From the NCBI RefSeq assembly GCF_964204645.1, contig NW_027437432.1:1-64000 (forward strand): a stretch of DNA of 64,000 nucleotides, read 5' to 3'. This stretch comes from Tubulanus polymorphus (taxonomy: Eukaryota; Nemertea; Palaeonemertea; Tubulaniformes; Tubulanidae). How positions within the stretch are numbered: position 1 is the first letter of the stretch; every line of letters starts with the position of its first letter. Shown piece by piece: positions 3,355 through 46,815 of the stretch. The position numbers were made by a program, and so were the translations under genes. The notes beneath the pieces are model-generated. The model saw only the letters and a list, made by a program, of their open reading frames with translations, was not told where the DNA came from and searched no databases.

Positions 3355-3360
3355 TTTATT
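3355..3360 (-). terminator. Poly(A) signal of the large gene
   Basis: AATAAA on the minus strand, about 130 bases after the stop codon at 3488-3490. It is the first perfect hexamer downstream, implying a short 3' UTR. Confidence 0.55.
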
Positions 3361-3487: not shown

Positions 3488-4901
3488 TCAATATCGATCT
3501 TTTCTCATTTTTCTAGTTTTTGTTGCCAGGGGTGACTGGAATTTCTCTAAATAAGGACTCGTTAATTGAGCGTTTAAATTTCCTGAAGCTGAAAACGGAC
3601 GTTTATTTACAGATAGTTTATCTTTCCTCGCGCTGGTGCTGCCACCGGCTCCGCTCCGAGATTTACTACTCTTGATAAATAGTTTTGGCGACCCGCTGTT
3701 GCTCATACCGCTGTGTTTCGGGGATGTTAAACCATCGCGACTGTGACCGTTTATGAATCCGTTGCTAGGCTGCGGATGTAGTGTCGTTATAGCGGGAGTC
3801 GAATGCTCACTAGAGGGCGTATGAATCAGTAAACTCGCAGTTTTCTTACGATATTTTGACATATCTGAAATTATAGGTTTTTAGTTTATAGAATTTCTGG
3901 TGAATTTGAAGCGATCAGATCGAGAGAACTGGACCGATATATTACCGAGGAATTCTGAAGTGATATCAGTACTAGCGCCATCTATATCATCTAAACCATC
4001 TACTTCAGTCATCGTCGTGTAAAGTGTCTGATCGAGAAATGCAGAAAATGACGAATAATCAAAACTGCAGTTACGACCTTGCCATACGAGATTATCTGAA
4101 ATATTTAAAATTAAAGATCAGTCTTAGACCATGGGTTATAGATGATTGTTCATGATATCGCGAGGCAGGTTAATTTATACATTTCACTTACTTTGTGGAT
4201 ACATAATAGTAATGTACGGAACTCCTTGAATCTTTAATTTCTTACTCAAATCCTGATCTTTTCTTCCTTTAGAAGGCGTGCTTTTCGGAGTAGAAGGATC
4301 TTTATTATCTAATCCTACGATTTGACCGGTTGTATGTCTGATTATTACGTCATCTCTCCAACCATTCTTCATTAGAACGTGAATCAATTCCTGACGTTCA
4401 GCGATTATATTACTGTCTAAACCAACGGCAACCGTCAGGAAATTGCACTGAAAATCATTTATTTGAATCCAGTTTCATGAAAACAGAATTGAAATACAAT
4501 GAGTAATAAACAGAAATGTTAACTTACAGTTGTGTATTTCTCTTTAGCGAATTTGAAGAAGTAACTGGCAACTTTCATCGAAGCCAAACACCTGAAATAC
4601 AATCAAATAACACGAATAAATGAGGTTTCACGAAGGCCACTCACTTCCCCTCAGAGAACCGTAGCTCTCCTTCCTCGCACAGGAAACGTTCACTTACCAG
4701 TGAGTCCAGAATAAGATGACTGTTGGTTTATCGGTATTACCAGCAATCATCGGTTTAAATTCTCCATCAAATACATCTCTTAAAGCGCAGGGTGGTGCGG
4801 GTACGGGCTGTGAGAGGGCGCCCTGGTGAATCGGACGGTTTGGCGTGTGCATCTCCATCCTATATGTATCTGGATAGTGACAGCAGCCTTGTGACGGAAA
4901 C
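3488..4901 (-). CDS. Large gene, exons 54-58: thioredoxin-like domain and basic tail
   Basis: Exons 4901-4698, 4591-4528, 4447-4192, 4095-3946 and 3864-3488. After a Pro-rich lead, DVFDGEFKPMI, comes the beta strand PTVILFWTHWC, then LASMKVASYFFKFAKEKY, FLTVAVGLDS, a lysine/serine-rich insert (PSTPKSTPSKGRKD), and GVPYITIMYPQ with a cis-proline-type Val-Pro, then LVWQGRN. This is the order of a thioredoxin fold. The active-site position reads W-C-L-A-S, so only one cysteine remains (CxxS). The last exon is Ser/Lys/Arg-rich and looks disordered. Trx-fold identity is inferred from motif order. Confidence 0.7.
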
Positions 4902-7900
4902 CTACAAACATAAACAATATCATTGCAGTCACTGTAGTAAATACTGATGTCATACAGGCATTCAAAATATGAAGAGACCTTAATTTCAACATGAAACATC
5001 AGTTGAATTTGTAGAATATCTCAAATTTTCAAAAAAAAAACTTTTGAGGAAATGAATATTTATAAGTAGAACTTACTTGGATTCTTTATTGTGCATATTA
5101 TTGAGACAGTAGAATGAGAATGGTTGGAATGGATGTGTTAATAATTCGACTATATTTGACTCGACACTGTTTGCGTGTGGTTTATCAGCTATTGCTATCA
5201 TACTCAATCTGTGACTAGGTTCACCTAAATTCAACTACAAAACAAACAATTCATTTATACAACAGTTGCATATTCAGTTATGGTAACAATGCTTAAATCA
5301 AGGAATTCTTTTGAAGAACCTTTGAAAGAAGAAATGTATGTATGACCTGATCGATTGAAATGTTAGTCGTGATCTGCGTGATCCAAGATGGCCACCAGTA
5401 ATTCTACACTTACCTTGATTCTGACAGTTTTGATGCCAGCGTGTAAAGTACAACCATACTGTTTACCATCAACCAGTACTTTATAACCACTGACATTTAT
5501 ATCTGCATTACTCTGAGGACATTGCCAACTGACATGTGCCAACAGGTGACCTGAAAGAACAACAACAAACAGACCTCATACAGTTTGTGAGGGTTTCAGT
5601 TGCTTATTAACCAGCGGACCTAGATAAAGTGATGCTGCACATTTAACTGCTTCAACTTTTGAGGGGAGGGGAGGGGGAACAGGAGGAGGGGTGTCTGTTA
5701 AATGTATAGTTCAATCATTTGAAATGAAGTTATCTCGAGTCAAATGGTATAAACTAAAAACTGTGTATTTTGATTGTCTAATCTACGAACCTGTATAATG
5801 AGCTAATGATGAGAAACAATCCTCTAACATGTCTTCAACAAGCACCAGACTTTCATTTACTTTAGAACCAACCTAAAAAAATATAAAATATTTCATTAAC
5901 CAACGATTTCATTCGATGAGTTCCAAATCAGTCTCAGAAATGTCAAAATTCATTTTACCTCAGAATCGAGTTTCTTCGATGATTTATTTAAAGTCAACAA
6001 TCGATCTCGTTTATTCAATAAATCACACGTGATTTTCTCGATTCGTCTGCGCTCTTCTAAACCGACGACGGTGATAGCAATAACCGGCGGATCCGGACTT
6101 AAAGCCGGTTGGATCGAGATCGACTCCGACCGACTAATTTCACTCGTTCCGTGAACCTAAACAATAACATCGAAAACCAAAATTCAAAATAACTGTCAAA
6201 TGGATCTAAAAATAGTAACTAACATCCAGCCCCCCCCCCCTTGAAGTCTCTCTCAAATAAACTAGAAAATCAATACTTACCAGAACCTCAAGATGCACCC
6301 TGTAAGTTCCTTTCTTTAGATTCTTTAATTCAGCGACTCTAGTTTCAGGATGAATCGGACTAACAGTCTGTACAACTTTATCAGTTCCTTCTTCCGTACA
6401 ATACAACTAGAAATTATTGATATAACATGAAACCATTTACAAATAGCAAAAACTACCAGGGGAGAGTAACAGTAATAGTTGAGTGATTTTACCTTAAACT
6501 GTTTAATTTTGACACCTCCCGTGCAGTAAGGATCAGTCCAGCGAACTCTTACAGCATTTCCTGTGATACTTTCAGCTTGTGTTAACATCGGTGCTTTTAC
6601 TCCGGGCCACGTGACAAATAACGGTTCTGACGGTTTACTGTGTAGTTTCTCATTAATACATAACGCCTATAAACATAAACACATGTGAAATACATAACAT
6701 CCACTTACACAACATCCACAACTGTGGAACTGTGGAGTCCAGAACTGACAATATATACCTGTATCTGGAATGCGTATTCCATGCACCATTTTCCGTGTGT
6801 AAATGTATAAGTGAGTTGATCAGGTCCGAGCATGGCTTCAACAACTCCATTTACAAACACTTTAAACCCACTAATAACACCCTCACCATACGTATTAATC
6901 TTATCCCATTCAATCGCGATATATTTGAAGTTACAAGCTCTGAAAAAAATATTTGAAAAATTCGATGAATAGCTTAGAGAGGAGAGAAGGGGGAGAGAGG
7001 AAAGAGAGAGGAGAAAGAGAGGAGAAAGAGTAGGTACCTGAGAGATAGAACTGGTGTATCTGGTGGAGCTGAAGTCTGAACTACAATCCGTGATGATTTC
7101 TCTAATACATCTTTATCTTCACCCAAAACGAGTAAATGAATAAAATGATTTGTTCCCGGGAAACAACCATTAATGATGCAATGCTGCTGATTGGATGCAA
7201 CCGTTACTTCTTTTTGCTGAAATAAACATGTCGAAAAATGTATCAGACATTCCACGTGTCAGTTACAACTGAGTCCACAGATCCACGTGTCAGTAACAAC
7301 TGAGTCCACAGATCCACGTGTCAGTTACACAGACTCGGGTAAATCAGACATTGTACAAACCATTGGTTGTGCCATACTGCTCCATTGTACTTTATAACCA
7401 GTAACTCCCTCTGGTGTTATATATCCGGACCAATCGAGATGAATCGAATCATCGGTTGTTTGTATTGATTTTAATGGAATGATGTCGTGATCTTCCTCAG
7501 CAGACGTATATTCTGAGAGATGTAAGCTGCCAGCTTCTGGTAGATAGCTAGCGCCGTCTTGTGTACTGATATATAACGTATTAGACAGTGCCGATTCACT
7601 TCCCGATTCATTTATAGCGATTAGATTCACTTTATAATGTCGATTCGCGCGGCACGGAATCACTGCTTTATGGTGTTTATGAGTCAATGATTTACCAACT
7701 CTTTTATCGTCTAAAAGCAACTGTGGATAAAATAGATTCATACTTAGTTAAAAATCAACAGCAGCCGCAGTGAGAGGGACAGGGTCAGGGTCTGGGGCTG
7801 GGTTAGAGTTAAGGGTTAGGGGAACAGTGATTGTTTCTAACCTGATATCCTTTGATTTTATTTTGTCCATGAATTCGAGGTTCTCCCCAAACAATACTGA

Positions 7901-10900
7901 ATTCATCACTTTCAATCGAGCGTAAAAATATCTCCGGAGCAGTGGCGACACCTGGTATCAGTACTTGTAAGTGCGGATAATTCGGCGTGGTCGATTCTTT
8001 TTTATGGATCACTTCTAAACCGAGTTCATAAATGCATCTACAACAAGAACATGTCAAACTCAGACCAATTTCTTAGTGTAAAATCATTCAGTTTAGTTGT
8101 ATCAATATTTTATACCTGTCCTCATTCACAGCTATTGAACATCTATTCACATTAGAATCTAATACTTTACTCTTTACGACTGGTTTCTGTTTATTGTAAT
8201 AATTCACACGGAATTGTTTGATTTTATCGTTTTGTTCGTGTATTTTCCAATCGAAGTAAATTTCACCTCCGCCGGTTTGAGTCGCGGATCTAGGAACAAA
8301 TACAGCACTCATTTCAGAAATACAACCTGAAAATAGAGAGACCAGAAAACTGGGTCAACTGTGAGATAACTAAAAGAAAACTGGGTCAACTGTGAGATAA
8401 CTAAAAGAAAATTGGGTCAACTGTGAGATAACAACAAGAGAACTGGGTCAACTGTGAGATAACAACAAGAGAACTTGGTCAACTGTGAGATAACAACCAG
8501 AGAACTGGGTCAACTGTGAGATAACAACAAGAAAACTAGGTCAACTGTGAGATAACAACCAGAAAACTAGGTCAACTGTGAGATAACAACCAGAAAACTA
8601 GGTCAACTGTGAGATAGATGTTCTGGTGATGTGAATAGCATTCAAATTAACACGATTGTGAAATTGATATTAATGAATAAATCTCTCTTACCGGGATAAA
8701 GTTCAGGTATCGACACTGACACAGATTCAGACATCGATTCATCATTTTCTATTTGTTCATCTCCAGAAAGACTGACGAAACTGGTGCGAGAAATAGAGTC
8801 ATCTGTACCGGAACTAATTACAGCATCTTCACCATTCATCTGTTTATAAATATTACAATTAGAAGCACATCACCCTATGACATCACTATATCAACCTATG
8901 ACATCACAACTGACCTTTCTCTTGCGATCTTTCTTCACCTCATCGACGCACGTTACAGCTGTTAATACAATACTGTATGTTTTACCTCCTCTACATTTAG
9001 TGAGAGTACACGTCTGAGCGAGAGGTGATAAACATCGGTGGAATTTACCGTTAATAATCAGTTTATAACCCTGTAACGAACGTTGTAGTAACCGTGGTGA
9101 CCCGTCACACCGATATTTACCGATTACAGAGTATAAAACTGGTTTATTCCACGCAAGTTGTATCGTATTCTGCGTGTAACCACGGATACCGATTACGGGC
9201 TGTTCGCACGGAGCTCGCGTACGTATAAACAACGAACTCGAAACGACGTGAGTCGTCCGTCTGTTCATCATTTCAGTCGTCGTCGACGACGATGAGTCCA
9301 TTGTTGTTTTAACGCTAACGATCGCCTCGACGACGATTTTATACCGAATTCCGGGCAGTAAATTAACGATCGATATCGTATTATCACCGGGATTTAGATT
9401 CATGTGATCGGCTGTATTTAATTCATCTTGTTTACGAGGATATAACGGAGCCTCGGACCACCGGACGATCTGACCTAATAAACGATTCGATCCATAAACG
9501 GTCGGTGGTTTCCAACGGATAACGATACAATCAGTATGTATTTGATCGGCTGATAGGTTATAGGGCGCGTCCGTTCCCGAGGTTAGAGCAATAACGGTAG
9601 CCTGCGGCAACCAACGATTGTCTTTCGGGATTAAACTGAAATCTTGCGGTAATTTCTGAAGTCGTTTCGTCTCGTCGCGATCGGGAAGTTCGTAAAAGAA
9701 TTCTTCGGTTACCGTGGTGATCGTAACAATGTGTTCTACGCGTTCTCCGAGATTCTCGATCGTACAACTCGTCGCGTCCGGCAACAGATCTAACGTTACT
9801 ATCTCAGGATTTGTCGCCATAGGAACGCAATCAACTCTCAAACCTACAAATAACAATCAAATCAGTTATCTATTTTCAAACTGAGCAGTTTGAGAACTGA
9901 AGAGTTTTAAACTGATTTATACCGATGACTTCAACTCCGTGCTCTTTAGGTGGATCCCAGGCTAGTTGAATACTGTGACACGTTGTAGCTGTGACTCCGA
10001 TATTTTTAGGTGGATGCGGAGGCCTAGCCGTGTGAATATTCAATTTATTTGATTTTCCAGTTAGAATTAACGTGTTATTTCCGTTCTCAACGAGGTTCCC
10101 ATCAACATCTACAACAATACAATCACACGAGTTTACTGTAATGTTTGATATTTTAGATGGATTATAGAAATGAATTGTAGAGTGATTACGGTAATCTGTC
10201 TACCTTCATCATAAGCCGAATAAGATCTGGTGCTTCTTCCTTCTATGATCACCGTATAAGTTGTGTCCGATTTTAGATCATCTAACAACAAGTGATCCTC
10301 TAAAAACAATGAGAGAGATTGAGAAAATCAAGGAGCTGCAACAATAAGGAGGAGATGGAAGGAATGTTAGAACAAACCTGATGTAATCTGACTGTTAATA
10401 TCTAATTCGGGTTGGTCCCCTGGCCACCATGTGACTTCATAACTCTCAGGAGCTACGAAGTGAGCCTGCGGTTTGTTAGCTATAAATAAACACATCTCAG
10501 CGAGATTAGACAATTATTGAAATAATAATAGAATTGATTGAGACAACAATGTGAATCACAGTGAGTACTTACATGTATTCCAGACAATGAATGCTGAATG
10601 ACCGGTAACTGTTTCACACCACACTTTAGACGGTGGTTGTACTAACCCTGTGTAGTGAACTGACAGTTTAGGTCCTGCCTTACAAGCTGTATACTGATCA
10701 TGTTTAATATTATCTGTAAAAACATCGATGAAATAATCTTAAAATATCTGAAAATATGGAGTATCATTCATCAGTTTACAGAGAGATTGTTGCTATGGAG
10801 CCAAATTTAGAGTGAAAGAAAGTTTGCTAAGTTTAGTAGTGTTCAGTATTAGAACACGCAGTTCCACAGTTCATCGTTGATATTTGACTGTATAGAGTTT

Positions 10901-13900
10901 AAACATCGAACATTAACTGTTTCTAACTAAACCGAGAATTGTAGAAGAATTAACACTAATCAATGCCTGGTTTATAAGTTTACCCCAGTCATCTCCGTTC
11001 TCTAATTTCTCATTGCCCTGACCGACTGGATGTTCCGTCAATGCTATCAGTTGTAAAACGACTTTATCACCGAGTTCAACATCTTTAATAGTGAAATTCT
11101 GTACATCGGGAGGAACCACTGAACCATACAATTTACCATTCTTTAATATCTGATAACCCTGAAAATATACAATTTAAAATCCATCCAGATTTAGTGAACA
11201 CAACACGTTGAATATTTCCAGTTTCCAGGGCCTTCAAATTCCCTGATTTGTTCTCGAGGTTTTTCCTCGTCAAACAGACACCTCTCTAGTGATCTATACT
11301 AGGAGGGTACTCTACAATCACGAGATACTCACAGATACTCTAGCGTCTCCGTATTGCTGCGGTGTTTGCCACGTGAGATGAATGCCCTCAGTATCGAGAC
11401 CCTCAATTCGTAAGTTTGGAGATTGCGGTGGTGCTGAACTGACAACAGTGATTACATTAGACAATTGACTCTCAGATACACAATAAACGTGATCAGTTTT
11501 ATTATCGGTCTTCGAGTAACCTGCATACGCCTGGAAAATACAAAAACACTAAACCATCAATAATATTTCTAAAACAAACTCTTCGGCCTAGAGTCAGAAA
11601 TGGTTGAATTCAGGGAAGATTTGAGAAATATTTGACCTTCACTGAGACTTCGTAAGCTTGTCCCGGGATAAGATCGGTCAGATAATACTGATAACCATTC
11701 TTATCAGCCGTATTAACAGATTTCATTTCACCGTGCCATTTCCCATCTACAAATATCCTACAAATAGAAAACGCAATCCCGGTCAGACAAGCTTTATCTC
11801 CTCTACCCGTCGTAGAGCTACAGCCGAGCATTCGGCAATTTTGAAGGTCTTTTGAAATATCTCATAGCAAATAAAATTAACAATTTTATAATAGGCCACA
11901 GATATATTCTTGTGTTCCTAGAATAAGATGTTTCATCGATATTTCTGAAACACTGGATGAAGTACTCACTTGTAGTAAGAGACATCCTCTAATCGGGGAA
12001 TACCTCCCGCTGTCGGTTTATCCCAACCAATCACAACCACTCCTTTTTTAAACGAAGGTTGTTGACAGATGAATGTCGGGGGTGGAACGTTCGGACATGT
12101 TACTTGTATAGTTTTAGACGGTAGACTATTCCCTACTGCGTGATCAGTAGTAGCTATCACTTGAATGTTTTTCGTGGTTCCTAAAATATCAAAATATTCA
12201 GAAATCATTCGAAATTCATCAATTCTAAAATATTGAAGGGAAAGATGGATTAAACACCGAGAGTTACATAAATAATCATATACAACAAGAGTAGATGATG
12301 ATAAACTGACCTGGTTGAAGACTATCAATAACAGTTCTAGTAACTTTAGGATTCAGTTTCTCACCAAGTTGTTGACCATCGACCATTATCATAAAACCAG
12401 ATATATCCATACCATCGATAGCTTCATAACCATCCCACTCTAAACACACCTGAACATAGAGACACATAGCTATAAACCACCTCATTCCATAGGCAGAATC
12501 CCATTCCATAGGCAGAATCCCATTCCATAGGCAGAATCCCATTCCATAGACAGAATCCCATTCCATAGGCAGGGTTAATTGCTCAAATACTCTTATGGCA
12601 GACTGGCAATTAAAGGAGGAAGGGAAAACAAAAGCTAACTGAAGAATTTCAAGGCAATTTCTTCGCAAAAAATCATTGGAAGTCTGTTAAACTAGTCAAA
12701 CCAGGGAGGGGCCCAGGGTCAAGTTTTATATATAACATATGGCTTTACCAAGTCCACATCTTTTAACCTAGAAGCTTTATAGAAAGGCTGAAATAAATCA
12801 ATGGTTGATAACAGATTGGTTTGTAACGTACCTGATAAAGATCAGCTTTATAAACTTTAACATGAGGAGAATCTGGAGCACCTAATGCTGTATAATATAT
12901 CACAGATGAAGACACTTGTATTTCACCGGGCTGCCGAGCATCAACCATTGAATAATTCGCAATTACAAATATCCTACAATATACAAATCATTTACGTACT
13001 GGTTTTTTAATTAGTACATTTTATGATGGTACAATACCGCGTTTAATGCTATATTTACCTGTATTTTTGAGATGGTACGATACCATGTACGACGCATTCA
13101 TTCTTATCAGCAATATTCCATGAATGTTGAATTGCTCTCGACATTTTACCATCAAATTCCTGATCACATTCAAAACTATAAAATAAAACACCAAGAAATT
13201 CGTATCAAATCAGCTCCTCATTGTTCGTCAAATCAGCTCCTCATTGTTTGTCAAATCAGCTCCTCATTGTTTGTCAAATCAGCTCCTCATTGTTTGTCAA
13301 ATCAGCTCCTGTTTGTTTGTCTTGATTTGCAGTTTTAGGTTCAGATTCACAACCAAAATTATGCAGTTAAAATACTTTGTAAAAATGGGTTGCTCTCGAT
13401 AAATGGGCCCCTCCCTCAGTTGTTTTGGCGGCTACAAATTCTATATGTGAGTGAAGAAACTAAGTTCAGCCTACCTGATATCACTGTTAACTTTCTTCTC
13501 AAATTTCTGTCCAATCACATTCACTACGTACAACATGAGTTTGTATGGTTTTAGCGGAGGATGTGGTAAACTCCATTCTATTACTATAGAATTCAACGCT
13601 TCTGGTTCCACTGTTACCGACGGCGACGGTAAATTATCAGCCTATACAAACACAACAATGATACAGTCAATAAAATACAATTAACAATGAGAGATGATTA
13701 GTGATTGCAATTCAATGTACCTCCATTGCTGTTCCAACTGCAGCTGATTTATCTTTCTTAGCATCAGTGGGAACAATTATAGCTTCCTCAACCTCAACTG
13801 CCGCAGCAGCCTCCTGTTGATTTAAACTCAAATCAGCAGTTTCTTCAACATTCACTACAGCATCACCTGCAAAACATTCACAACATTCTTATAAATCTAT

Positions 13901-16900: not shown

Positions 16901-19900
16901 ACTCTGGTCTCATAGATACAGTGTACAGTGTACTCTGGTCTCATAGATACAGTGTACAGTGTACTCTGGTCTCATAGATACAGTGTACAGTGTACTCTGG
17001 TCTCATAGAAACAGTGTAACAGTGTACTCTGGTCTCATAGATACAGTGTACAGTGTACTCTGGTCATATAGATACAGTGTACAGTGTACTCTGGTCTCAT
17101 AGATACAGTGTACAGTGTACTCTGGTCTCATAGATACAGTGTACAGTGTACTCTGGTCTCATAGATACAGTGTACAGTGTACTCTGGTCTCATAGATACA
17201 GTGTACAGTGTACTCTGGTCTCATAGATACAGTGTACAGTGTACTCTGGTCTCATAGATACAGTGTACAGTGTACTCTGGTCTCATAGATACAGTGTACA
17301 GTGTACTCTGGTCTCATAGATACAGTGTACAGTGTACTCTGGTCTCATAGATACAGTGTACAGTGTACTCTGGTCTCATAGATACAGTGTACAGTGTACT
17401 CTGGTCTCATAGATACAGTGTACAGTGTACTCTGGTCTCATAGAAACAGTGTAACAGTGTCCTCCGGCCTCAGAGATTTGAATATTTGAGTAAAAACTCT
17501 TCAATGAAACCAGCTTCCAAAAGATGGCTGCAAAACCACTAAATCTAGTTAGAGCATTACAGTGAAGTTTAGAGATTGTGTATTACTGAGTTACTGGGTT
17601 ACTGGGTATTACAGAGGTATTACTGAATATTACAGGTATTACTGAGTATTACAGGTATTACTAGCTACTTTAACAACATTGACAATTAATATTACATAGA
17701 AACACTGAAACCATTAAATACAAATAGTAACTACAGGGATCAGTTCTATAGACTGGATCAGTTCTATAGACTGTATCAGTTCTATAGACTGTATCAGAAT
17801 GGATCAAAATCCAGAATTTTCAGTCACAGAACTGAATACAGATTGAACTGAACCCTGCTGTTATTAGCAGTTTAATTGAGGAATATAAAACTATTTTCTT
17901 ACCCTGTTCTGTTTTACCATTATTTTCGATTCCCTCTTCAGTCATCACAGGTACTGCTTGTTCAGCACTAACTTCTTGTTTGATTATTACATCTTGACTT
18001 ATTAGTTCTGGTTCTAATTGAGCTGCTACAAATAAATCATTAATCACATCATCAAATTCCAACAAATCATCTAATAATAGCACAGTAGGGTTTAACAGTA
18101 GGCTCTATCAATAGGCTCTATCAGTAGGCTCTATCGGTAGGCTGTAGCAAACAGATTTTCTGATGCTCCTAATTTTGTTTTATTGAGGCTTCTTTAACAA
18201 AGCTAGGATTCGTTCAATATATTCTTTTCCAGATGGAAACCTATTCCTACTGAAAACTGTGAAACATTTCTCAAATATCAGTCAAGTTTTTAATTAGGAC
18301 AGTAACTGTGGAACTGTGTAAGGAACGTACGTCTGTCCATATCTGGTAAATATCCCGAACCTTCACGAACTTCCACATATTCCGAATACATATCAACATC
18401 ATCCGTTCTCAACTCAATATCCGGCAGGTCAATATTCTCTGTATCTAATGGCAACGATAGTTCCAACTGATTGGACAGTTTCGGTCGTAAACTTAAATCT
18501 GTAAATAATATATGAAATTATATAAATAAGTGATTAGACTGCGTTGAACTGGGATTGAGAGAGAATGTATTCTTACTATCACCAGCTGGTATAGCCATTA
18601 CTGCTACTCTATACACTATATCCAACTGACATCCTTCTATTACTACTTTACATCTCTGACAATCTTCATCGGGTACAACCTACAATCATTCAATATACAA
18701 CCTACAATCATTCAATATACAATATCTACAATCATTCAATATACAATATGTTGATAAAGATTTAAGTTAGCGAATGGTTTCATTGTTTAAAAGATTCAAA
18801 CATGTCATCGGACGCCAGTTTCTGAGAAGTTGGTTGAACAATTAAAAATATATATCTGATTGTTTAAACTTCAAATTTTGAGCAACTGGACTCAGCTCAG
18901 GTGGATTAGAAGTAACTGGACTCAGCTCAGGTGGATTAGACCATTACGTACCATTCCTCCACATTGTTTTCCGTTGAGATATACTTTATAACCGGCTACT
19001 GGATATTCAGGAGTAGAGATAGACATCCAGATAATAGCCATAGCGTTATCATTATCAGTGATGCCTAGTGATATTAATGGACCTCCAAGAGCTGTTGTCT
19101 TATCACAATGCATTGTCTGAAATATTCAAATATCAGTTCATTTCCCAAGAATCCAATTTACCGAAGAACTATGGAACTGTGGAAATTATCCTGGACTCAG
19201 TTCTACTGTTGTGAGTTGAAGTTTGAACTCTTGAGACACCTTCAATTCTTTAACACAAGTAAATAAGATTTATACTCAGAACTGCGGAACTGGATCCTAA
19301 GGGATGATTTAGGTTCGATATTTTGTGCACAGAGTTGACTGGGAAACTGAAAACTTACCAAATGATTAGATTTATGCGGTAGAAACATTTCTTCTTCGGG
19401 GAAAACTTCCAACCAGATATCGTATGTACGTCCACCAGCGAGACCTGCGATATTTAAACTGTGGTGATTGTGAGGAAATATCTCACAATATGAGATTCCA
19501 TTTAGATATATCTGAAATATCAAATTAGACAAATGTGAAATGATTGACAATGAGAAGATTGAGAATTCGTTACGTTTAAACAGCCCTTCAGTTTACCTCA
19601 TAACCTTTGATCAGATGCAAACTTTCTTGAGGAGGTGGGTCCCAGAAAACTTCTAAAATTCCAGGTCCGGTGAAACAGCCTTTTATTTTCGGGATACAGC
19701 CCCACCATTGCCAGGTTTTTGTCTGCAATAAACGTATTAAGTAAATGAAATACCTGCGGCAAGCGAGGATTTATAGTTACTCATCTTTCAATCAACTTTT
19801 CTCTTGATGTTTATGAAAACTTACAGTAGTTTCTGCTGTATCCAATTCATCGTTTACCGGTTCGGTATCAGACGCCTCTGATTCACCTGATTCTTCATCT

Positions 19901-22900
19901 GATATTTTACTCAACACCCAAAAACGTCTGCAAAAATACACATAATCACAATCAATTCATCTGCATTTGAAAATGGAGTCTAAATTGTGAACAAAAACCA
20001 GCACATCAATCCAGCTCTGACTCCATAGAGTTAAACATTTCAAAATTTGGACCTGTTTCGGGTAAAGGAACTAATTGACAAACCTGGAAGTCATGACATC
20101 GCTTTGTAAACAGGAATCACTCACAGCTAAAGCTCTGATTACAAATAAACCACTTTCCTTCAATACAATTCCTTTATCAGGTTTATAAATCTAGAAAACA
20201 ATAAAATAAAATCAGTTTCTCTGAAAGACGATGAATAGAAATATCAGAAATGAATGATTGAAAGACCTTTGATTGTTGTCTATGAGGTTCAGGTAAAGAT
20301 CCGTCTAACGTGTAGAATATCTTAGCGTCCACAGTTTGACAGGTCAGTTTAACGACGTGTCCTCGATCACAGACTCCACCGATCTTATCAGAGCAAATAT
20401 CAGGACAATCGGTCTTTTTACCTAAAATTGATGAGAAATACCTGAGAATCCTTTATGAGAAACAAAACCACGTCAGGATTTAAACATATGAACCCTGAAT
20501 TGATGAGAGACCAGTGAAAGACTGATGCATTAAACCACTCGGGCCCTGTACCACTCGGGACACTGTACCACTCCGGCACTGTACTACTCGGGACGCTGTA
20601 CCACTCGGGCACTGTACTACTCGGGACGCTGTACCACTCGGGCACTGTACCACTCGCACACTGTACCACTCGGGCACTGTACTACTCGGGACGCTGTACC
20701 ACTCGGGCACTGTACTACTCGGGACACTGTACCACTTGGGACGCTGTACCACTCGGGCACTGTACCACTTGGGACGCTGTACCACCAGAAATTCTTACCT
20801 TCTAACAGAACCTGTACAGTTCCAGCGAAACCCGGAGCACCTTGAGACGCGACACAGAATTCTCCAACTTCATCAAACGTATAGAGGAAGCTGTTATTAG
20901 GAACCGGTCGTCCGCTGTTGAATGATTTACTGCCTTGTATTACACTGAGTGGAGTCTACAAATATACATACATCATATATACATGTACATCAGCTAAATA
21001 CATTATACATGTGCACAACAGATGTATATAGGCGATACATACCTCACTACTAGGAGGGTTCACATGTACTATATTGTGTTCCTCTTCTCCGTTGTTTTTC
21101 CAAGTCCACAAAACCGACTGACCCTAAAACCACGAACCCAATAACTGTTAGTTTATCATTAAAAAGTGTACAGCAATTCAAACAACTCCTTCATGAATGG
21201 TTTATATATTAAACAACATTTCATCAAATAATCATCGTGATGTGGTAGCTACTGATAGCTGTTCTTGGCTGCCACTCTCTTCAGCTACCCTTCCTTAGAC
21301 TCCTTTCCTCTGACTCCCTTTCCCTGGCAGCTTCCCCTCCTTGGTCTCCCCTCTCCCTGGTTTCCCTTCTCCCTGACTCCTACCCCCCTGAGCTAGGTTA
21401 CAAACAAACATACCTTTAGAATGTTGACTTTAGTCGGATTGAATCCTTTAGTTGAGACCTGAACCGCAATACAATCATTACCTTCATCTACTATAACAGT
21501 ACTGATCTTAGAATCATTATACTGAGACTGAAATATTATAAATAAAACAATTTATCAATCATAAAGTAACAATGAGAATGGAGAGAGGAGAGAGAGGAGA
21601 GAGAGGAGAGAGAGGAGAGAGAGGAGAGAGAGGAGAGAGGAGAGAGGAGAGTGGAGAGACACAAACCTGATCTTTCTTGCCCGGTTTAATAAATGCTTTG
21701 CTACAGAAATGATAAATTCCACTGTTTGCAAATGAGCGATTCATACAGCGACTAAAATACAAACAGATTTATATTGATTATACGACTAACGCTTGGTTCC
21801 TGTTTCACATCCATTCACAGAGAATTTCGTATTCTAGCAAAGAACCACAGTCAGAAGAAACAGTAGCTATATAGAATCATTCTTTGAATAGTCTGATACA
21901 ATCTCGACATTTTAGGATTAAATCTAAAATCTCAAAGCGTTTCTGAAATATGTTTGTTCCAATCACAGTTTAGTGAGACTTACCGCGGAGCGTGAGTACC
22001 GGGCATCGACGATATATTCAACAATTGATCAACTGATTCTATTTGTTGAACGTCGTTTTGTTTCAAACCTTTAAACGACCAACAGACGACATCGTTAGTG
22101 TTTATAATTAGGGGATCTGGATTTAACGAGGTTGAATTAACAGCGATGTTGTGAACTCTCGGCTGAGATGAGACGACTATAGCACCGAATACCTTCGCTA
22201 TATTAGCACTGAAATATATATGTAACATGTGAGACACTGGGCCATGTTTGTACATTACTGGGGTCGGTCCGAAGTGTAGTTTGAGGTCCTATTACGAGTG
22301 ACAAAAATTGTCAAATTGCCCTTTTTGGATTTTACAGCCCCAGAATCATTGAACTATAGATAGAGGTTTCTATGTTTACCTGATATAATAGTAAACACCA
22401 GGTGAAGTGAACTGATTGACGTAAGCAGACGGACAATCCATCGCAGCTCCGCTACAGAATCCATCTTTAACGTGAAAACCTTGATGAGACACCTATGATA
22501 TAATAATATAACTACTGGTTATACAAACACCGAGTCCTCACAACTGAGCAGGTCCTCACAGCTGCGCAGGTCCTCACAACTGATCAGGTCCTCACAGCTC
22601 AGCAGGTCCTCACAGCTCAGCAGGTCCTCACAACTCAACTGGTCCTCACAGCTCAACTGGTTTATAGATATTTTAGAGCATTTTATAGAGCATTTTTCTC
22701 AGTATTTTTACCTGGATAATGTTGTGTTGTTTTGCGCTAGTTTGCCAAACCCACCAAACTCTATCATTACTGTGCACACTGAGAACCTTCGGTTCAAATC
22801 CTTTATCCGTCACATGAACCGTGTAATTCTACAAATATACAACAAATATATAGTCACTTCATCCGATGAGAACATAGATAAACTATTAGGAGGAAGATGG

Positions 22901-25900
22901 ATAGATAGACAGACAGATAGACAGGTAGATAAACTACTAGGGGGAAGATGGATAGATAGACAGACAGATAGACAGGTAGATAAACTACTAGGAGGAAGAT
23001 GGATAGATAGACAGACAGATAGACAGGTAGATAAACTACTAGGAGGAAGATGGATAGATAGACAGACAGATAGACAGGTAGATAAACTACTAGGAGGAAG
23101 ATGGATAGATAGACAGACAGATAGACAGGTAGATAAACTACTAGGGGGAAGATGGATAGATAATACTTACCCTTGATCCAGGATTGACTACGACTGATGA
23201 AGTAGAAATGTTATTAGGACTATCAGCTATTCTATAGTGATATAATCCAACTGCGTTTAAACTCGTAGATTCAAATCCGACTAAAGACTTTGTCAAAGCC
23301 GAGGATTCATCTAGAAATTCACATTTATCTGAAAAATATGATTGCAAAGTGATAGTTATATACAGAGGGAGGGAAAGAGGGGTGACGTAAGAGCCGCTCC
23401 TCGGAATGAAACGATGACTTTTGAGTCTATTAGAACATTAAGTATCTCTTTTATGGTCCTGCTTTACCCTGCTAGGTAGCAGTCCATCGAGGTCCCTAAT
23501 TCTATCATGTTACTCATCACAAAATTATGATTTAATGATGAAACAGTAGGACTTACTTTTACAATCGAAAGGTAGAGCCTCTTTAGCGATAGGAGATAGA
23601 CTCCGTTCAACTTCAACGAGCGAGAATGTAGTTTTATTATCTAATAAACTGTTAGTTTTCCAGCTCCACCAAACCTGATCGCCGGTCTCCACGTACTGTA
23701 AGTCTGTTATTATACAGAGATTCAGTGTTCAGTTTATAAATAAACGAAATAAAGAATACAAATCCGACAATTAATGAAATATCTGGTGTAAAATAAGCAG
23801 ATAATTCATCAATTGTATGATTAATAATTTGTCTAAATTGAATATTTTGAAAACGTTAAAACTGGGTGTGAAATATTGAGACACGAACCTGGTGCGAATC
23901 CTTCTGGAGAAAGTTCAATGAAATGTTGTTTTTGTTTTGGACGTACGATGATCGTCCCCAGATATTCAGCAGCTTCATGGAAACTATGATCGGAGTAATA
24001 ATATACTCCAGGAGTTTTAAACTCATGAGACACTAGTCCACATTTACTCGGTTGAGGCCATTTAAAACCATCTTTCTTTTGCTGTAAATATATCAAACAG
24101 AAACATTCAAAACTGGATCTCAGTTTTACATTTGATGACATTTAAAATTAGTTCAATTTGAACATTTCCCAGTTCAACAGTTCTTACTTAGAATTGACAA
24201 CTTAATGGATTAAAACATTAAACTAATCTTAACTCATATTTCACTGACAAATGTAGAACTGGAAATGTGTGACTCACTTTAAATGATTCATCTGGATTGT
24301 GGTTGAGATTTGGAGCCTCAGTTTGATAAATACAATGATGTTTTTTGACGTTATTTTTATCCCACGACCACCAGACGCGATCTCCTTCCTCAATCAATAA
24401 TATCATCGGTTTAAATGTTCGATCTTCAACTTCTATTCGATGCTCCCTAAAAATAAACAGATTCTTCATGATGTCAACCAGTTCAATATGAAACAAACAG
24501 ATTCTTCACAATGTCGACCAGTTCAATATAAAACAAACAGATTCTTCACAATGTTGACCAGTTCAATATAAGACAAACAGATTCTTCACAATGTCGACCA
24601 GTTCAATATAAGACTAACAGATTCTTCACAATGTCGACCAGTTCAATATAAGACAAACAGATTCTTCACAATGTCGACCAGTTCAATAAACGACTCCTGT
24701 GTTAAAACTTACTTTTGTGAAGCTCTAACTCGAACTATTGTAAGATGTTTTTTATCAATAGTTCCAGCTTCAGCTTGGAAATAATAGATACCAGGATTTC
24801 TAGAAAACAGTAAAAATAGAAAATTAATCAGTCTCACAAATTACAGTCATCCAAAATAAACCAAACTGGAAACTAATAAAGAGCACATCTTACCTGAATT
24901 CATGTTTGTAAACACCAGAAGAAGTTGCTATCCCGGTTCTAAAAATAAATCATTTCATCATCAATGCGGTTCAGTCAGATGGTAACAATTAACACTAGTA
25001 AATGTAGATAGACGAACAGCTAGAATATAATTGATATTTTACCCTGATGTATTTTCTGGTTTGATAATTCCACAGTGTTTTGAGCAATATTTCACTTCAT
25101 ACATGAGATGTTGTATTTCACATAGTTTCCATTGCCATTTCACAATCGTTCCTTGATCAATGTGTAAAACTGGATTAGTAAATCCTGCGTCCGTTAATTC
25201 AGCTGTTAATTCTTTCCTTTCTTGAACGACGACGATCAGAGGGGTACAGCGTAGTCCGGCACTAGAATTATACACATAAAAACAATGACGATCAGAGGGG
25301 TACGGCGTAGTCCGGCACTAGAATTATACACATAAAAACATTGACGATCAGAGGGGTACGGCGTAGTCCGGCACTAGAATTACATATACCAGTTTAAAGA
25401 GAGCCAAGTATACCCCGTTCTACAAGAGTTGGATTTAACTATCTTTAACTGTTTGAAATATCAATAAGTGTTAAACCTGATGTTCAGAGTTAAATATTAA
25501 AGATATAACCGTTAAAATGAGTTGATAATTTGACAGTAGAGGTAAAATATCGGAAATAAACTTAACAACTTATATTCTAGAATTAAACAAACAACAACTG
25601 CGGAACTGGATCCTGGATTCTTCAGTCAAGAGACATGTTTTTTACCTGACAAATTTATATTCTCCGGCTAAATTGAACTGATGTTCATAATGACCTTCTT
25701 TAGTTAACGGTCCGCTGTAAATACCGCCGGTAACCGGTCGAAACTGGTCTCCATCATGCACTACCTACAAATACAAATACAAATCAAAACTATCAACGTA
25801 TAAACAAGAGTAATGGATCTGATATTTCTGGGCGCAGTTTCTACGGGTAAATCCTCAATCTAGTTATAACCATGGTTATAACTGACAAATTTCAAACCGT

Positions 25901-28900
25901 TCCCAGGGACTATCTGTCTTCCATATCTATGAAACCGAGCCCTGATGTTTAATGGTTACATATTGATTTCTTAACGACAAAAACAAGAAAATCATTTATT
26001 TCGCTACAAAAGAAATCAATTTTCTACTAAAGGTAAAATCTGCATTATTTATTGAACTGTTCCGTTAAACAGGTCGATCACGATCAAGAAAATAATAGTT
26101 CCTTAGTAACTGCTCAACTGGTCTCATCTGTTATGGTAACCAGTGACAGCGCGATTATTAAAATGACCTTCACAGCATTAATTAATGACCTTCACAGATA
26201 TAAGATCCAGATCAACAATAATTTACTGAATATATTCTAAAATCATCAATAAACTAGTATCTCGTCAGAGTTTGTATCGGCACTAGATGACTCGTAGAGT
26301 ATAGTAGTAGCTTTATTGATAAAATCATTTGATTCTAGATTTCTAGATAGGTTGGCGCCTAAAGGGAGTGTAATATTAGCAACTGTTGAGTTAGTGAGAT
26401 TGGATGGGGACTGATGGGGGTAGATACTGTACAGTGTGATGTCACCGACTTCAAACAAACAGCACAAAAAAAAATATCAGCCGATATATTACTATCAGAT
26501 CAGCGTAACCCATGGCAACAGAGAATATAAACGGAGTGATGAATCTATTTATAGACACAGATTCACTGACAAGGAGTGGGAAGGGGAGAGGAGTGGGGAG
26601 AGGGAGTTAGTAGAGAGGGGTAGGGAGAGGGAGTGGAGAAAATGGGGAAGTGGAATGTGTCTAAGAACCCCAGTGTGGTCTAGATTTACACCAGACCCCG
26701 ACACACTCAGACCCCAGTGTGGTCTAGATTTACACCAGACCCCGACACACTCAGACCACAGTGTGGTCTAGGTTTACACCAGACTCCGACACACTCAGAC
26801 CCCAGTGTGGTCTAGGTTTACACCAGACCCCGACACACTCAGACCACAGCGTGGTCTAGGTTTACACCAGACCCCGACACACTCAGACCACAGCGTGGTC
26901 TAGGTTTACACCAGACCCCGACACACTCAGACCCCAGTGTGGTCTAGGTTTACACCAGACCCCGACACACTCAGACCACAGCGTGGTCTAGGTTTACACC
27001 AGACCCCGACACACTCAGACCCCAGTGTGGTCTAGGTTTACACCAGACCCCGACACACTCAGACCACAGTGTGGTCTAGGTTTACACCAGACCCCGACAC
27101 ACTCAGACCACAGTGTGGTCTAGGTTTACACCAGACCCCGACACACTCAGACCACAGCGTGGTCTAGGTTTATGGTAAGTTTCACATGGATTGTGCTGAT
27201 CTCTATTACCGGTATAATATTATATGATCAGATTAAAATGTGTTGTGTATTTTACTAAGAGGATTAGAGAAACTCAAACAGAAATCAATCACACGTTTCT
27301 ACTGCTTTCTACTGAATTTAATCCTCCTTCACTGGCAATTCAGCTGCTGATGATGGGAGAGACTGGGGTACTGATGAAATTCAGCTGCTGATGCTGGCGC
27401 TGGTGATGTTGGGAGAGACTGGGGTACTGATGAAATTCAGCTGCTGATGCTGGTGCTGGTGATGTTGGGAGAGACTGGGGTACTGATGAAATTCAGCTGC
27501 TGATGCTGGTGCTGGTGATGTTGGGAGAGACTGGGGTACTGATGAAATTCAGCTGCTGATGCTGGTGCTGGTGATGTTGGGAGAGACTGGGGTACTGATG
27601 AAATTCAGCTGCTGATGCTGGTGCTGGTGATGTTGGGAGAGACTGGGGTACTGATGAAATTCAGCTGCTGATGCTGGTGCTGGTGATGTTGGGAGAGACT
27701 GGGGTACTGATGAAATTCAGCTGCTGATGCTGGTGCTGCTGATGATGGGAGAGACTGGGGTACTGATGAAATTCAGCTGCTGATGCTGGTGCTGGTGATG
27801 TTGGGAGAGACTGGGGTACTGATGAAATTCAGCTGCTGATGCTGGTGCTGGTGATGTTGGGAGAGACTGGGGTACTGATGAAATTCAGCTGCTGATGCTG
27901 GTGCTGGTGATGTTGGGAGAGACTGGGGTACTGATGAAATTCAGCTGCTGATGCTGGTGCTGGTGATGTTGGGAGAGACTGGGGTACTGATGAAATTCAG
28001 CTGCTGATGCTGGTGCTGGTGATGTTGGGAGAGACTGGGGTACTGATGAAATTCAGCTGCTGATGCTGGTACTGTGATAAAACTGACAGCTAATGAAGAC
28101 TGACAAGATCCGGCTAATCACTACTTATAAAACACACATTGACAACGTGTAAGTGCAGTGAAACTAACCACCCTGTGGGGGGGGGGGGACTGACGGGACT
28201 GAAGTGGTTCACAGAGAGAGAGAGTGGCTGTGTCCTCCACTTCATATTGATATTTACAGTGGAAATTGCTCACTATCCACCTCTATACAAACTACATGTA
28301 CTGGGTGAGAAGGTGTCGTCATTAGTAACTAATCATAATTTTACTGAATTGTTGAGAAGAGAAGTTCATCATTAGTAATTAATCATAATTTAGTTTTCAC
28401 TTCACCCGTGGGACAGGGTAGGATACTAACACGCAATGGAACAAGTCTCATGATGGATGGATGGATGATCGACATAGTGTTATCCATATAACCCTCAAAT
28501 CGTGTTACCTTGTATAATCCTCAAAGTGTTACCCCTATAACCCTCAAATAGTGTTACCTGTATAACGTTATAACCATTTCCAACCGGATCATCCCAGGCA
28601 AATGTTAAAACCTGTCCCTCTGATAGTGTTACCGCTTGTAATGAAAATCCACTGCGAGATATCACTACAATATTCAACGGTCCTGAAATATAAAATATAA
28701 TTCCTCCAATGACATCATCGCAATGGTTGGTTCTAAAGTAGATCGGGTTTAACTCATTCAGGTTCTTACCTTTCCGTTCATTGTTTAGAGCTGAAACTTT
28801 TTTCCATGTTTTTTGACTGGCAGCTGACCGGGCGGATAAAACAGGTCGACTGGTCGCAGGTCGACTGGTCGCGGGTCGACTGGTCGTTGTGTTACTAGTC

Positions 28901-29001
28901 GATTGTTGAACTAGTTTAGGAGATTGACGAGTGGATGATGAAACGACTGATCCGTTACCGGACGGATCCACATCACCTTCAACTGAAGCTCCCGTTCCCA
29001 T
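3488..29001 (-). CDS. Giant multidomain cupredoxin-repeat / FN3-array / thioredoxin-like protein (58 coding exons, 3527 aa)
   Basis: ATG at 29001 and stop at 3488. I joined 58 coding exons by hand. Every junction has GT/AG ends, matching phases and no internal stop, and the total is 10584 nt. Domain order: N-terminal MGTGAS (myristoylation-type); seven cupredoxin-like repeats (about 82-795); a chitobiase/beta-hexosaminidase C-terminal-like module (796-882); two FN3 domains (918-1099); an acidic Ser/Pro-rich linker (1100-1536); about 14 FN3 domains (1537-3177); a thioredoxin-like domain (about 3190-3365) with WCLAS and a cis-proline-type GVPYIT; and a basic Ser-rich tail ending RKMRKDRY. There is no signal peptide or membrane segment, so it is probably cytoplasmic, perhaps membrane-anchored by myristate. 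I do not recognise the architecture and assign no function. Two adjacent genes (29001-15055 and 13866-3488) remain possible. Exons are listed in the block entries. Confidence 0.8.
5077..13866 (-). CDS. Large gene, exons 28-53: FN3 array (about 14 domains)
   Basis: Exons: 13866-13721, 13641-13475, 13175-13059, 12973-12832, 12449-12311, 12180-11970, 11757-11637, 11530-11333, 11158-10933, 10713-10573, 10479-10378, 10299-10204, 10108-9923, 9843-8915, 8839-8692, 8326-8116, 8037-7842, 7720-7361, 7216-7038, 6939-6759, 6666-6493, 6406-6281, 6156-5959, 5872-5791, 5550-5414, 5234-5077. Typical signatures: IVIEWSLPHPP, VCLEWDGYE, HLTWQTPQQYG, IQLAWDPPKEHG, IVIRWKPPTVYG, IQLAWNKPV, IVWGEPRIHGQNKIKGY, VRVRWTDP, and repeated GYKV.VDG(K/Q)Q turns. 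The 929-nt exon 9843-8915 holds at least two whole FN3 domains. A 148-nt Ser/Asp/Glu-rich spacer exon follows it. The array suggests an elongated scaffold; no enzymatic motif is visible. Confidence 0.8.
7255..7327. repeat. Intronic 32-bp repeat, about 2.3 copies
   Basis: ccacgtgtcagttacaactg and its flank (agtccacagat) are repeated with one base change in the intron between exons 45 and 46 of the large gene. Confidence 0.85.
8343..8617. repeat. Intronic minisatellite, about 32-bp unit, 8 copies
   Basis: Units built on gggtcaactgtgagataac followed by an A-rich linker, in the intron between exons 42 and 43 of the large gene. Two linker variants alternate (taaaag and aaccag/aacaag). Confidence 0.9.
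12480..12568. repeat. Intronic 19-20-bp repeat
   Basis: About four to five copies of ccattccataggcagaatc in the intron upstream of the exon starting at 12449. Confidence 0.85.
13204..13322. repeat. Intronic 23-bp repeat, about 5 copies
   Basis: Tandem copies of caaatcagctcctcattgtt (plus tgt) between exons 29 and 30 of the large gene. Confidence 0.9.
14300..14660 (+). repeat. Degenerate repeat cluster with telomere-like AACCCTAGGGTTAG palindromes
   Basis: Three or four loose copies of a module holding gattggtctagag, a variable stretch, and a CCCTAGGGTT palindrome. It lies downstream of the alternative terminal exon. A related cluster lies in opposite orientation at 32690-32960. Confidence 0.7.
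15055..15566 (-). CDS. Large gene, alternative terminal exon (short isoform, 1657 aa)
   Basis: The acceptor TATTGAAG precedes 15566. The phase-1 entry continues exon 27 in frame and stays open to TGA at 15055-15057. The encoded C-terminus includes KGPWMNKLKTVAGARMAVDY and a basic helix, KKKKDLGKILYKLEREK, ending RQKQRKG. Downstream minus-strand AATAAA hexamers at 14239-14244 and 14046-14051 could serve it. An internal CAG|gttaac after HRKSQ is in phase 0, which does not fit the next exon's phase-1 entry. So this is either an alternative last exon or the end of a separate gene. Confidence 0.6.
15648..18498 (-). CDS. Large gene, exons 25-27: acidic, Ser/Pro-rich linker
   Basis: Exons 18498-18331, 18025-17903 and 16520-15648. 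No folded domain was recognised. The 873-nt exon 27 encodes EEEVEEEVEEEVEDREE, Ser/Pro/Lys-rich stretches, a helical segment around ATEIINKLTDLK and NMMSKLREVLDD, and a second acidic run (EEEIIDEDEEES). Exon 27 ends in phase 1, which fits both downstream choices (15566 or 13866). The intron before exon 27 is almost filled by the 30-bp array at 16575-17462. Confidence 0.75.
16575..17462. repeat. 30-bp minisatellite, about 29 copies
   Basis: A highly homogeneous array of agtgtactctggtctcatag plus atacagtgtac fills most of the intron between exons 26 and 27. Rare variant units (aaacagtgtaac; ggtcatatag) recur at spaced positions, which suggests higher-order duplication. Confidence 0.95.
17580..17800. 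repeat. Two short AT-rich tandem repeats
   Basis: A loose ttactgggtattacaggtat-type repeat (17580-17665), then four copies of a 17-18-bp unit, gtatcagttctatagact (17735-17800), in the same intron. Confidence 0.7.
18083..18145. repeat. 14-bp repeat, about 4 copies
   Basis: agtaggctctatca-type units in the intron just upstream of the exon starting at 18025. Confidence 0.75.
18577..19722 (-). CDS. Large gene, exons 21-24: first FN3 pair
   Basis: Exons 19722-19597, 19511-19359, 19116-18952 and 18679-18577. Two FN3-like domains each show the B-strand Trp (EVFWDPPP and AIIWMS), a GY(K/E).YLNG turn (GYEIYLNGIS, GYKVYLNGKQCG) and a closing tyrosine-corner segment (GGRTYDIWLEV, LDIVYRVAVMA). Each domain is split by one intron at the same place, after the GY or NGKQ turn, which suggests internal duplication of a two-exon unit. 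Confidence 0.75.
18868..18942. repeat. Duplication abutting the exon 23 donor
   Basis: Two copies of agtaactggactcagctcag plus gtggatta lie immediately beside the donor of the exon ending at 18952. Confidence 0.75.
19825..20421 (-). CDS. Large gene, exons 18-20: chitobiase-C-terminal-like module and acidic spacer
   Basis: Exons 20421-20267, 20190-20084 and 19927-19825. The sequence VVKLTCQTVDAKIFYTLDGS followed by LPEPH and LFVIRALAVSDS matches the CHB_HEX_C (PF13290-type) beta-sandwich often appended to surface or cytoskeletal multidomain proteins. It is rich in cysteine (DCPDICSD, GVCDRG). The third exon is an acidic Ser/Glu-rich spacer that leads to the first FN3 pair. Confidence 0.7.
20535..20785. 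repeat. Compound 16-20-bp minisatellite
   Basis: Mixed units of ggcactgtaccactcg and ggacgctgtaccactcg in the intron between exons 17 and 18. The open frames seen across it are products of the repeat. Confidence 0.9.
20799..29001 (-). CDS. Large gene, exons 1-17: N-terminus and seven cupredoxin-like repeats
   Basis: Exons: 29001-28770, 28682-28558, 25764-25646, 25261-25043, 24938-24894, 24799-24713, 24446-24278, 24081-23889, 23703-23557, 23328-23171, 22828-22712, 22492-22380, 22208-21984, 21751-21667, 21527-21414, 21123-21043, 20955-20799. Each repeat follows GF.P..L.V..GD.VWW.W, a variable insert, then PG.YYY and a final beta strand (for example GDRVWWSWDKNN, GDQVWWSWKTNS, NDRVWWVWQTSA, then TPGVYYYSDHS). 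This is the greek-key cupredoxin pattern. The His/Cys/His/Met copper set is not complete in any repeat; the seventh is closest, with EEHNIVH and EFCVASQG. Domain identity is inferred from pattern, not from a profile search. The intron between exons 2 and 3 is 2.8 kb and made largely of two minisatellites. Confidence 0.8.
21573..21660. repeat. GA-rich simple repeat
   Basis: About nine gagagagga-type units in the intron between exons 14 and 15. The strand is purine-only. Confidence 0.9.
22532..22662. repeat. 18-bp minisatellite, 7 copies
   Basis: aggtcctcacagctcagc-type units in the intron between exons 11 and 12. Confidence 0.9.
22876..23165. repeat. 51-bp minisatellite, about 5.7 copies, beside the exon 10 donor
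   Basis: Units contain actaggaggaagatggatag, then agacagacagatagacaggt. The last partial copy runs into the minus-strand donor at 23166-23170. Confidence 0.95.
24453..24690. repeat. 42-bp minisatellite, about 5.5 copies, starting at the exon 7 acceptor region
   Basis: Units aacagattcttcacaatgtc plus gaccagttcaatataagaca. The first copy overlaps the pyrimidine tract just upstream of the exon starting at 24446 (minus), so the array appears to have grown out of the intron 3' end. Confidence 0.9.
25231..25382 (-). repeat. 56-bp triplication containing an acceptor and the exon 4 head
   Basis: Copies start at 25231, 25287 and 25343 (56-bp spacing). Each holds 31 bases of the start of exon 4 and the same TTCTAG|TGCCGG acceptor. 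Only the copy nearest 25261 is followed by the rest of the exon. The other two are decoy acceptors with exon stubs. They carry a derived G (tacggcg) where the true exon has tacagcg. Confidence 0.9.
26660..27170. repeat. 45-bp minisatellite, about 11 copies
   Basis: Units tctaggtttacaccagaccc plus cgacacactcagaccacagt, in the 2.8-kb intron between exons 2 and 3 of the large gene. ccacagcgtgg, ccacagtgtgg and ccccagtgtgg variants are interspersed. Confidence 0.95.
27350..28075. repeat. 56-bp minisatellite, about 13 copies
   Basis: Units ctgatgaaattcagctgctg, then atgctggtgctggtgatgtt and gggagagactggggta, nearly identical, in the same intron as the 45-bp array. Read in any frame it is a repeat, not a gene. 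Confidence 0.95.
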
Positions 29002-29017: not shown

Positions 29018-29740
29018 TCTAATTTAAATAAAATATCAATATTTTAAAATTAAAAATATCAACAATTGAAATATGTTTTTTTTTATGAAAAAAATAGCGT
29101 TGACTCCAAAATAAATATCAGACAATGTAATATTTTCAGGTGTGTTACTTGACTTCCTGTTACTGATTACACCAATTATCAGCTTAGTTGCCCTCGGCAA
29201 CAAACGACTTTATACGAACAATGTATTTCTAAAAGCGACAAAAAATATTGAGCAGAAATTTCAGGCGTCTTTGATTTTGATAAAATGAATGGTGAGGAAC
29301 AAAAATTTGGAAAATGAGACTAAAAGCTAGAATTTTAATCTAATAACAAGAGAATTATTGATATGTGACTGATAGAATTCAATCAATATCATTTACTTCA
29401 GATAAACAAATAATTATTAAACATATTGAACGATTTATTGTCATTATACAAATATTACCCACACTTACTTATACAAACAAGTGCCGCTAATATTCACAAA
29501 CAAGTGCCGCTAATATTCACAGACAAGTGCCGCTAATATTCACAAACAAGTGCCGCTAATATTCACAAACAAGTGCCGCTAATTCACAGTATAATTTGGT
29601 ACAAATTCCATTGTTTAAGAATAAGAAAACCTACCTGAAATGAGATATCATAGTGAAGCAGTGTACTGTGTTTGGTTACTATGCTTTCATTGAACACACC
29701 GCACGGCACTGGTACCTGCCGCCCGCCCAGTAACTGTAAT
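29018..29740 (-). promoter_or_regulatory. Putative 5' UTR exon and leader intron of the large gene
   Basis: A minus-strand donor CATTTCAG|gtaggt ends at 29635, and an acceptor AAATTAG lies just before 29018, 17 bases upstream of the ATG. Together they suggest a non-coding first exon ending at 29635, with its start uncertain (about 29740), spliced to 29018. The inferred intron holds a 23-bp minisatellite at 29473-29590. No promoter motif was recognised. Confidence 0.4.
29473..29590. repeat. 23-bp minisatellite, 5 copies
   Basis: acaagtgccgctaatattca units upstream of the large gene, inside its inferred leader intron. Confidence 0.9.
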
Positions 29741-40687: not shown

Positions 40688-46706
<6,019 letters not shown>

Positions 46707-46804
46707 ATAAACCAAAACTCGCCCAAATATATCCTTGATTTCCCTACAATCAGTTAGTTCTATAATCCAACAGCATTCACTTCGAGAAACGGGATTCACA
46801 CAGT

Positions 46805-46815
46805 ACGCATGCGCC
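46805..46815. promoter_or_regulatory. NRF-1-like palindrome upstream of TENT4
   Basis: ACGCATGCGCC lies about 100 bases upstream of the TENT4 ATG and resembles the NRF-1 consensus YGCGCAYGCGCR with one or two mismatches. A near-identical site precedes VAP. Assignment is by motif only. Confidence 0.4.

Follow-up and report, generated by a model that had tools for sequence, protein, structure and literature searches.

Animal proteins with cupredoxin folds are known as secreted copper oxidases, clotting factors and ephrins. Here we describe a gene of the nemertean Tubulanus polymorphus whose predicted product would use this fold in another way. The gene lies at 29001-3488 on the minus strand of a 64,000-nucleotide stretch (positions 1 to 64,000 of contig NW_027437432.1, RefSeq assembly GCF_964204645.1), hereafter the window. 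In our reading, which we consider the more probable one with room for doubt, it is a single-copy animal gene for a giant intracellular scaffold, a chain of about 25 small modules that most plausibly sits in cilia.

Several described systems can be compared with this giant protein. Plastocyanin, amicyanin and copper nitrite reductase are the first Protein Data Bank (PDB) matches of a profile built from its seven cupredoxin-like repeats, but the giant protein has no copper cysteine, carries its repeats in tandem and lacks a signal peptide. RIM-BP/RIMBP2 is likewise intracellular; the RIMBP2 domain model fits five of the FN3 segments, and a fly RIM-binding protein appears among the PDB matches; the giant protein differs in having far more FN3 domains, added cupredoxin and thioredoxin-like parts, and no SH3 domain detectable with Pfam at E<=1. 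Titin-like giants are also large intracellular FN3 arrays, and titin tops the PDB matches of our FN3 profile. Unlike titin, however, the giant protein shows neither a kinase nor an immunoglobulin (I-set) match at that same Pfam threshold, and the genome holds a separate FN3-rich locus, a huge cluster of FN3 exons spanning ~90 kb on contig C1 (8389034-8477077) that is presumably a titin/twitchin-like gene. DZANK1, which was observed at the base of cilia in cultured cells (PMC4617706), is the closest PDB match to the Fn3_assoc/CHB_HEX_C module (E 0.005), but Pfam finds neither its zinc ribbon nor its ankyrin repeat in the giant protein. Finally, members of the thioredoxin family (Trx f, TlpA-like) resemble the C-terminal end by their fold as judged from sequence, by a WC motif and by a GVPY motif, whereas this end reads WCLAS instead of WCxxC and scores under the Pfam cut-off.

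The first-pass annotation of this stretch, made from the letters alone, knew of no named family with such an architecture. In fact, none with the same domain order turned up in the literature, Pfam or the PDB (animal proteomes were outside the search), and we found no paper that links cupredoxin to FN3 or to cilia in the sense needed here. All modules belong to known kinds, and it is their combination in this order that would be new. The protein may well be already annotated as uncharacterised in relatives.

To define the gene, codon preference, splice-site scores and phase bookkeeping were combined in an exon-chain dynamic programme on the minus strand, built without the exon list of the first-pass annotation. 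The programme returned 63 exons, with the ATG at 29001 and the stop codon at 3488 as ends. Of these exons, four were removed by hand (each fell in a minisatellite or was very short and flanked by poor splice sites) and three boundaries were corrected with the frame kept, leaving 59 exons, 11,061 nt and 3686 amino acids, for an encoded mass of ~410 kDa. Every junction is GT-AG, all phases agree and the frame runs without an internal stop. On the real strand the exon chain (61 exons) scores 1197, versus 71 on the opposite strand and 36-67 on ten random first-order Markov sequences, a ~17-fold margin that is somewhat flattering because the codon and splice scores of this control were trained on the gene model itself. 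The exon chain at 29001-3488 is far above chance and the observation is confirmed: the single phase-matched frame of the first-pass annotation stands with identical start and end, its 58 exons and 3527 residues becoming 59 and 3686. The ATG sits in a good context, with an in-frame TAA two codons upstream.

Minisatellite arrays crowd the introns of the gene (27343-28078, 26667-27172, 24450-24688, 22875-23162, 16583-17477 and 8344-8616). Their periods are 31-56 bp, with up to 29 copies that are 94-98% alike, and similar arrays occur throughout the whole 64-kb window.

The features of the locus are listed below, from the promoter to the 3' end, with their window coordinates, strand and basis.

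29187-29201, no strand assigned: candidate RFX X-box GTTGCCGAGGGCAAC, 186 bp upstream of the ATG (pattern search).
3488-29001, minus: whole coding region, 59 exons, 3686 amino acids (exon-chain model and control).
28770-29001, minus: exon 1, amino acids 1-77, a low-complexity N-terminus that opens with the myristoylation-type motif MGTGAS (gene model).
20799-28682, minus: exons 2-17, seven tandem cupredoxin-like repeats (Pfam, profile search, leave-one-out test).
20090-20351, minus: Fn3_assoc/CHB_HEX_C_1 module, about amino acids 819-881 (Pfam, PDB profile search).
18455-19692, minus: predicted FN3 domains 1-2, amino acids 928-1114 (FN3 hidden Markov model (HMM), Pfam).
13629-18455, minus: charged, probably disordered linker, about amino acids 1115-1718, holding introns 26 and 28 (composition, splice scores).
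5139-13629, minus: predicted FN3 domains 3-16, amino acids 1719-3316 (FN3 HMM, Pfam, PDB profile).
4010-4816, minus: thioredoxin-like domain, about amino acids 3365-3540, with the motif WCLAS and the cis-proline-type motif GVPY (PDB profile, Pfam).
3488-4010, minus: basic, serine-rich C-terminal tail, amino acids 3541-3686 (composition).
3355-3360, minus: AATAAA poly(A) signal, 128 nt past the stop codon (sequence).

The N-terminal half of the argument rests on the seven repeats, each of about 100 residues (amino acids 78-173, 174-274, 275-381, 382-496, 497-590, 591-694 and 697-796). When their profile was run against all PDB sequences, the best matches were nitrite reductase, plastocyanin, auracyanin, amicyanin and pseudoazurin, with a best E of 1.2e-4. 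In a leave-one-out test, an HMM of any six repeats recovers the seventh at 23-60 bits; the top score among 1000 shuffles is 10 bits, and for each of the seven, none of the 1000 shuffles scores as well as the repeat. Taken individually the repeats are weak against Pfam (two of the seven match at E<1), and on the joined protein, run through Pfam in three pieces, Cupredoxin_1 exceeds its cut-off. As judged by these profiles, the repeats are cupredoxin folds, seven in number as the first-pass annotation had counted them. The name holds for the fold and not for copper binding: in the alignment, the column of the plastocyanin copper cysteine reads S, S, I, D, A, S and S in repeats 1-7, a cysteine in none, and because of this a type 1 copper site in its usual form would not be possible. 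The first histidine is retained in four repeats.

Downstream of the repeats, the Fn3_assoc module scores 40.7 bits, where the cut-off is 23, and CHB_HEX_C_1 scores 33.6 over the identical stretch, both above cut-off; the module was originally called CHB_HEX_C-like, for which Fn3_assoc is the better name. The FN3 array, proposed to hold about 16 domains, is also borne out. For 13 of the 16 segments, Pfam fn3 gives E<=0.1 (that at amino acids 1719-1836 matches weakly), and an HMM built on nine unambiguous copies from the protein itself detects 14, so that about 13-16 FN3 domains are predicted. The fn3 family passes its Pfam cut-off, as does Ig_RIMBP2 in the middle piece of the protein. The FN3 profile matched 231 PDB sequences, with titin and fibronectin on top and one RIM-binding protein included.

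At the C-terminal end, a divergent thioredoxin-like fold is supported by 57 PDB matches, nearly all of them thioredoxins (best E 0.0085), while the Pfam scores stay under their cut-offs (Thioredoxin_8, E 2e-4, 22.0 bits versus 27; Thioredoxin, E 8e-4, 19.9 versus 23.5). A prokaryote scan with this end returned no relatives. The thioredoxin-like label of the first-pass annotation is retained for the probable fold only: WCLAS holds one cysteine, where disulfide-reducing thioredoxins have CxxC. One could imagine a working copper/thiol redox relay, in which the cupredoxin domains bind copper and feed the thioredoxin end with copper or electrons. The likeness of the repeat profile to plastocyanin, amicyanin and nitrite reductase, the four retained histidines and the very presence of a thioredoxin-like domain would fit such a relay; with the copper cysteine in none of the repeats and a single cysteine in WCLAS, we hold it to be highly improbable. 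For these same two reasons the protein looks structural rather than redox, and a long structural spacer, not a copper enzyme, is the most likely product of the gene.

Where would such a spacer sit? Neither a signal peptide nor a transmembrane segment was found in the whole 3686-residue protein; the highest 19-residue hydrophobicity mean is 1.56, and no hydrophobic segment is both long and strong enough, as had been claimed for the signal peptide. FN3 arrays and metazoan cupredoxin folds such as those of ephrins are mostly extracellular. Together with the many cysteines of the protein, this speaks for a protein outside the cell or in a membrane, with its signal peptide encoded in an unseen upstream exon. 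We find this quite unlikely, given the in-frame TAA just ahead of a well-placed ATG, the missing hydrophobic stretch and the long, charged linker. The intracellular scaffold of the first-pass annotation therefore remains the best reading, supported by the architecture and the lacking signal peptide. The N-terminal MGTGAS, a common motif, may allow myristoylation of Gly2, which would tie one end of the protein to a membrane.

We envision the following organisation. The seven copper-free cupredoxin repeats, the Fn3_assoc module and the ~16 FN3 domains would form a string of beta-sandwich spacers, arranged as two rigid stretches connected by a flexible charged linker of ~600 residues. A single-cysteine thioredoxin-like cap and then a basic tail would close the C-terminal end, and a myristoylated N-terminus may anchor the opposite end to a membrane. 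By analogy with other giant FN3 proteins, this scaffold would keep its partners at fixed distances, cilia being the most plausible place. If true, the cupredoxin fold would here be put to a new use, as an intracellular array of seven copper-free spacer repeats combined with FN3 domains and a thioredoxin-like end with one cysteine, and the product would be an unexplained giant protein. If the protein is ciliary, a large structural component would be added to a well-studied organelle.

Three groups of observations limit our confidence in this scaffold or its location: the structure models, the joints in the linker and the promoter. The AlphaFold2 models are poor. That of the repeat region (four rows) is all beta with a low predicted local distance difference test score (pLDDT) of 61; Foldseek and VIA-align returned generic beta-sandwich matches for it, all with Z <8, and no cupredoxin was among the matches listed, an outcome that says little at such a pLDDT. 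For the FN3 part the pLDDT is lower still, at 33.

The second group concerns the linker; amino acids 1115-1734 are rich in charged residues, almost devoid of cysteine and poor in order-promoting residues. The weakest joints of the gene model are intron 26, whose acceptor is the worst of all (-1.0), intron 58, and intron 28, whose donor AAGGTTGAG scores 1.5. From the sequence we infer a single transcript across introns 26 and 28, the two linker introns with poor splice sites. The locus could instead hold two neighbouring genes on the same strand, one with cupredoxin, Fn3_assoc and FN3 domains (29001 to ~15055) and another with FN3 and thioredoxin domains (from before 13866 to 3488). An in-frame TGA directly after exon 28 adds to the weak donor of intron 28 and the acceptor of intron 26 in favour of this split, which would sit inside the disordered linker. 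However, AATAAA and ATTAAA are absent for 800 nt past that TGA, whereas the true gene end has its AATAAA at 128 nt, the phases agree at all joints and exon 29 offers no suitable start codon ahead of its acceptor. FN3 domains also lie on either side of the linker, though likeness across it does not single out one gene. On balance, two genes seem unlikely, and we retain the single giant gene.

The third group concerns the cilium, named as a possible site in the first-pass annotation. T. polymorphus is an organism with motile cilia, since its genome contains tektins, a radial spoke 3 gene, CFA20-domain genes, BBS5 and IFT20; the style of its introns and its GPCR, Kunitz and titin-like loci fit an animal. 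The X-box consensus is GTNRCC N0-3 RGYAAC (PMC10530576), and GTTGCCGAGGGCAAC, 186 bp upstream of the ATG, fits it. The exact form, GTTGCC-N3-GGCAAC, occurs at 15 genome sites versus 2 for the reversed pattern, and the strict form, GTTRCC-N0-3-GGYAAC, at 469 sites in 268 Mb versus 116 reversed, or about one per 571 kb; the chance of a strict X-box within 500 bp of a given start is ~0.0009. This motif was, however, spotted by eye before testing. The looser consensus recurs at ten places in the window, ~20 times the chance expectation, many of them within exons and introns. In addition, no consensus X-box was found upstream of five tektins, RSPH3, CFAP20, a second CFA20-domain gene, IFT20 and BBS5 (~3-5 kb fetched); as controls, RSPH3, CFAP20, the second CFA20 gene and BBS5 are weak, their first exons not having been placed. 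An X-box as in RFX-regulated ciliary genes is thus present, but the motif is not discriminating in this genome, and RFX control of the giant gene through 29187-29201 is suggested rather than proved.

In a variant of this reading, the same giant scaffold would work elsewhere, for example in muscle, at the synapse or at a general cytoskeletal site. Titin and fibronectin as top FN3 matches, the five segments that match the RIMBP2 model and the ciliary control genes that lack an X-box argue for such a site; the strict X-box upstream of the ATG and an Fn3_assoc module whose closest PDB match, DZANK1, is located at the ciliary base argue against it. We regard a non-ciliary scaffold as doubtful though a serious contender, and tentatively place the protein in the cilium as its most likely site, other cytoskeletal sites being nearly equal. 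A more daring version would make it an axonemal or ciliary-membrane ruler, with the myristoylated N-terminus at the membrane and the thioredoxin-like cap at the opposite end: ~25 beta-sandwich-sized modules of ~4 nm would give ~100 nm, near the 96-nm axoneme repeat, a length that is arithmetic from general domain sizes and not a measurement. We consider this ruler very improbable.

The gene appears to be single-copy: queries with the N-terminal 819 and the C-terminal 764 amino acids returned the window alone in the 268 Mb, 77-contig genome, and no paralogue was found, although a missing match is no proof of absence. Its upstream neighbour (41942-46934, minus strand) encodes a Cid1-type non-canonical poly(A) polymerase (PAP_assoc, E 1e-19); as this gene lies on the same strand, no divergent gene shares the promoter next to 29001. 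On the other side, at 1-1468 on the minus strand, lies a gene of the TraB/PrgY/gumN family (TRABD-like) whose N-terminal exon carries a proline-rich repeat, with a 32-bp array of 24 copies at the contig end. The remaining genes noted in the window are a minus-strand gene with a VAP-like major sperm protein (MSP) domain (52620-54138), a plus-strand gene with two Kunitz domains (56619-57166) and a plus-strand, intronless rhodopsin-family G-protein-coupled receptor gene (58054-59082; 7tm_1, E 3.5e-17).

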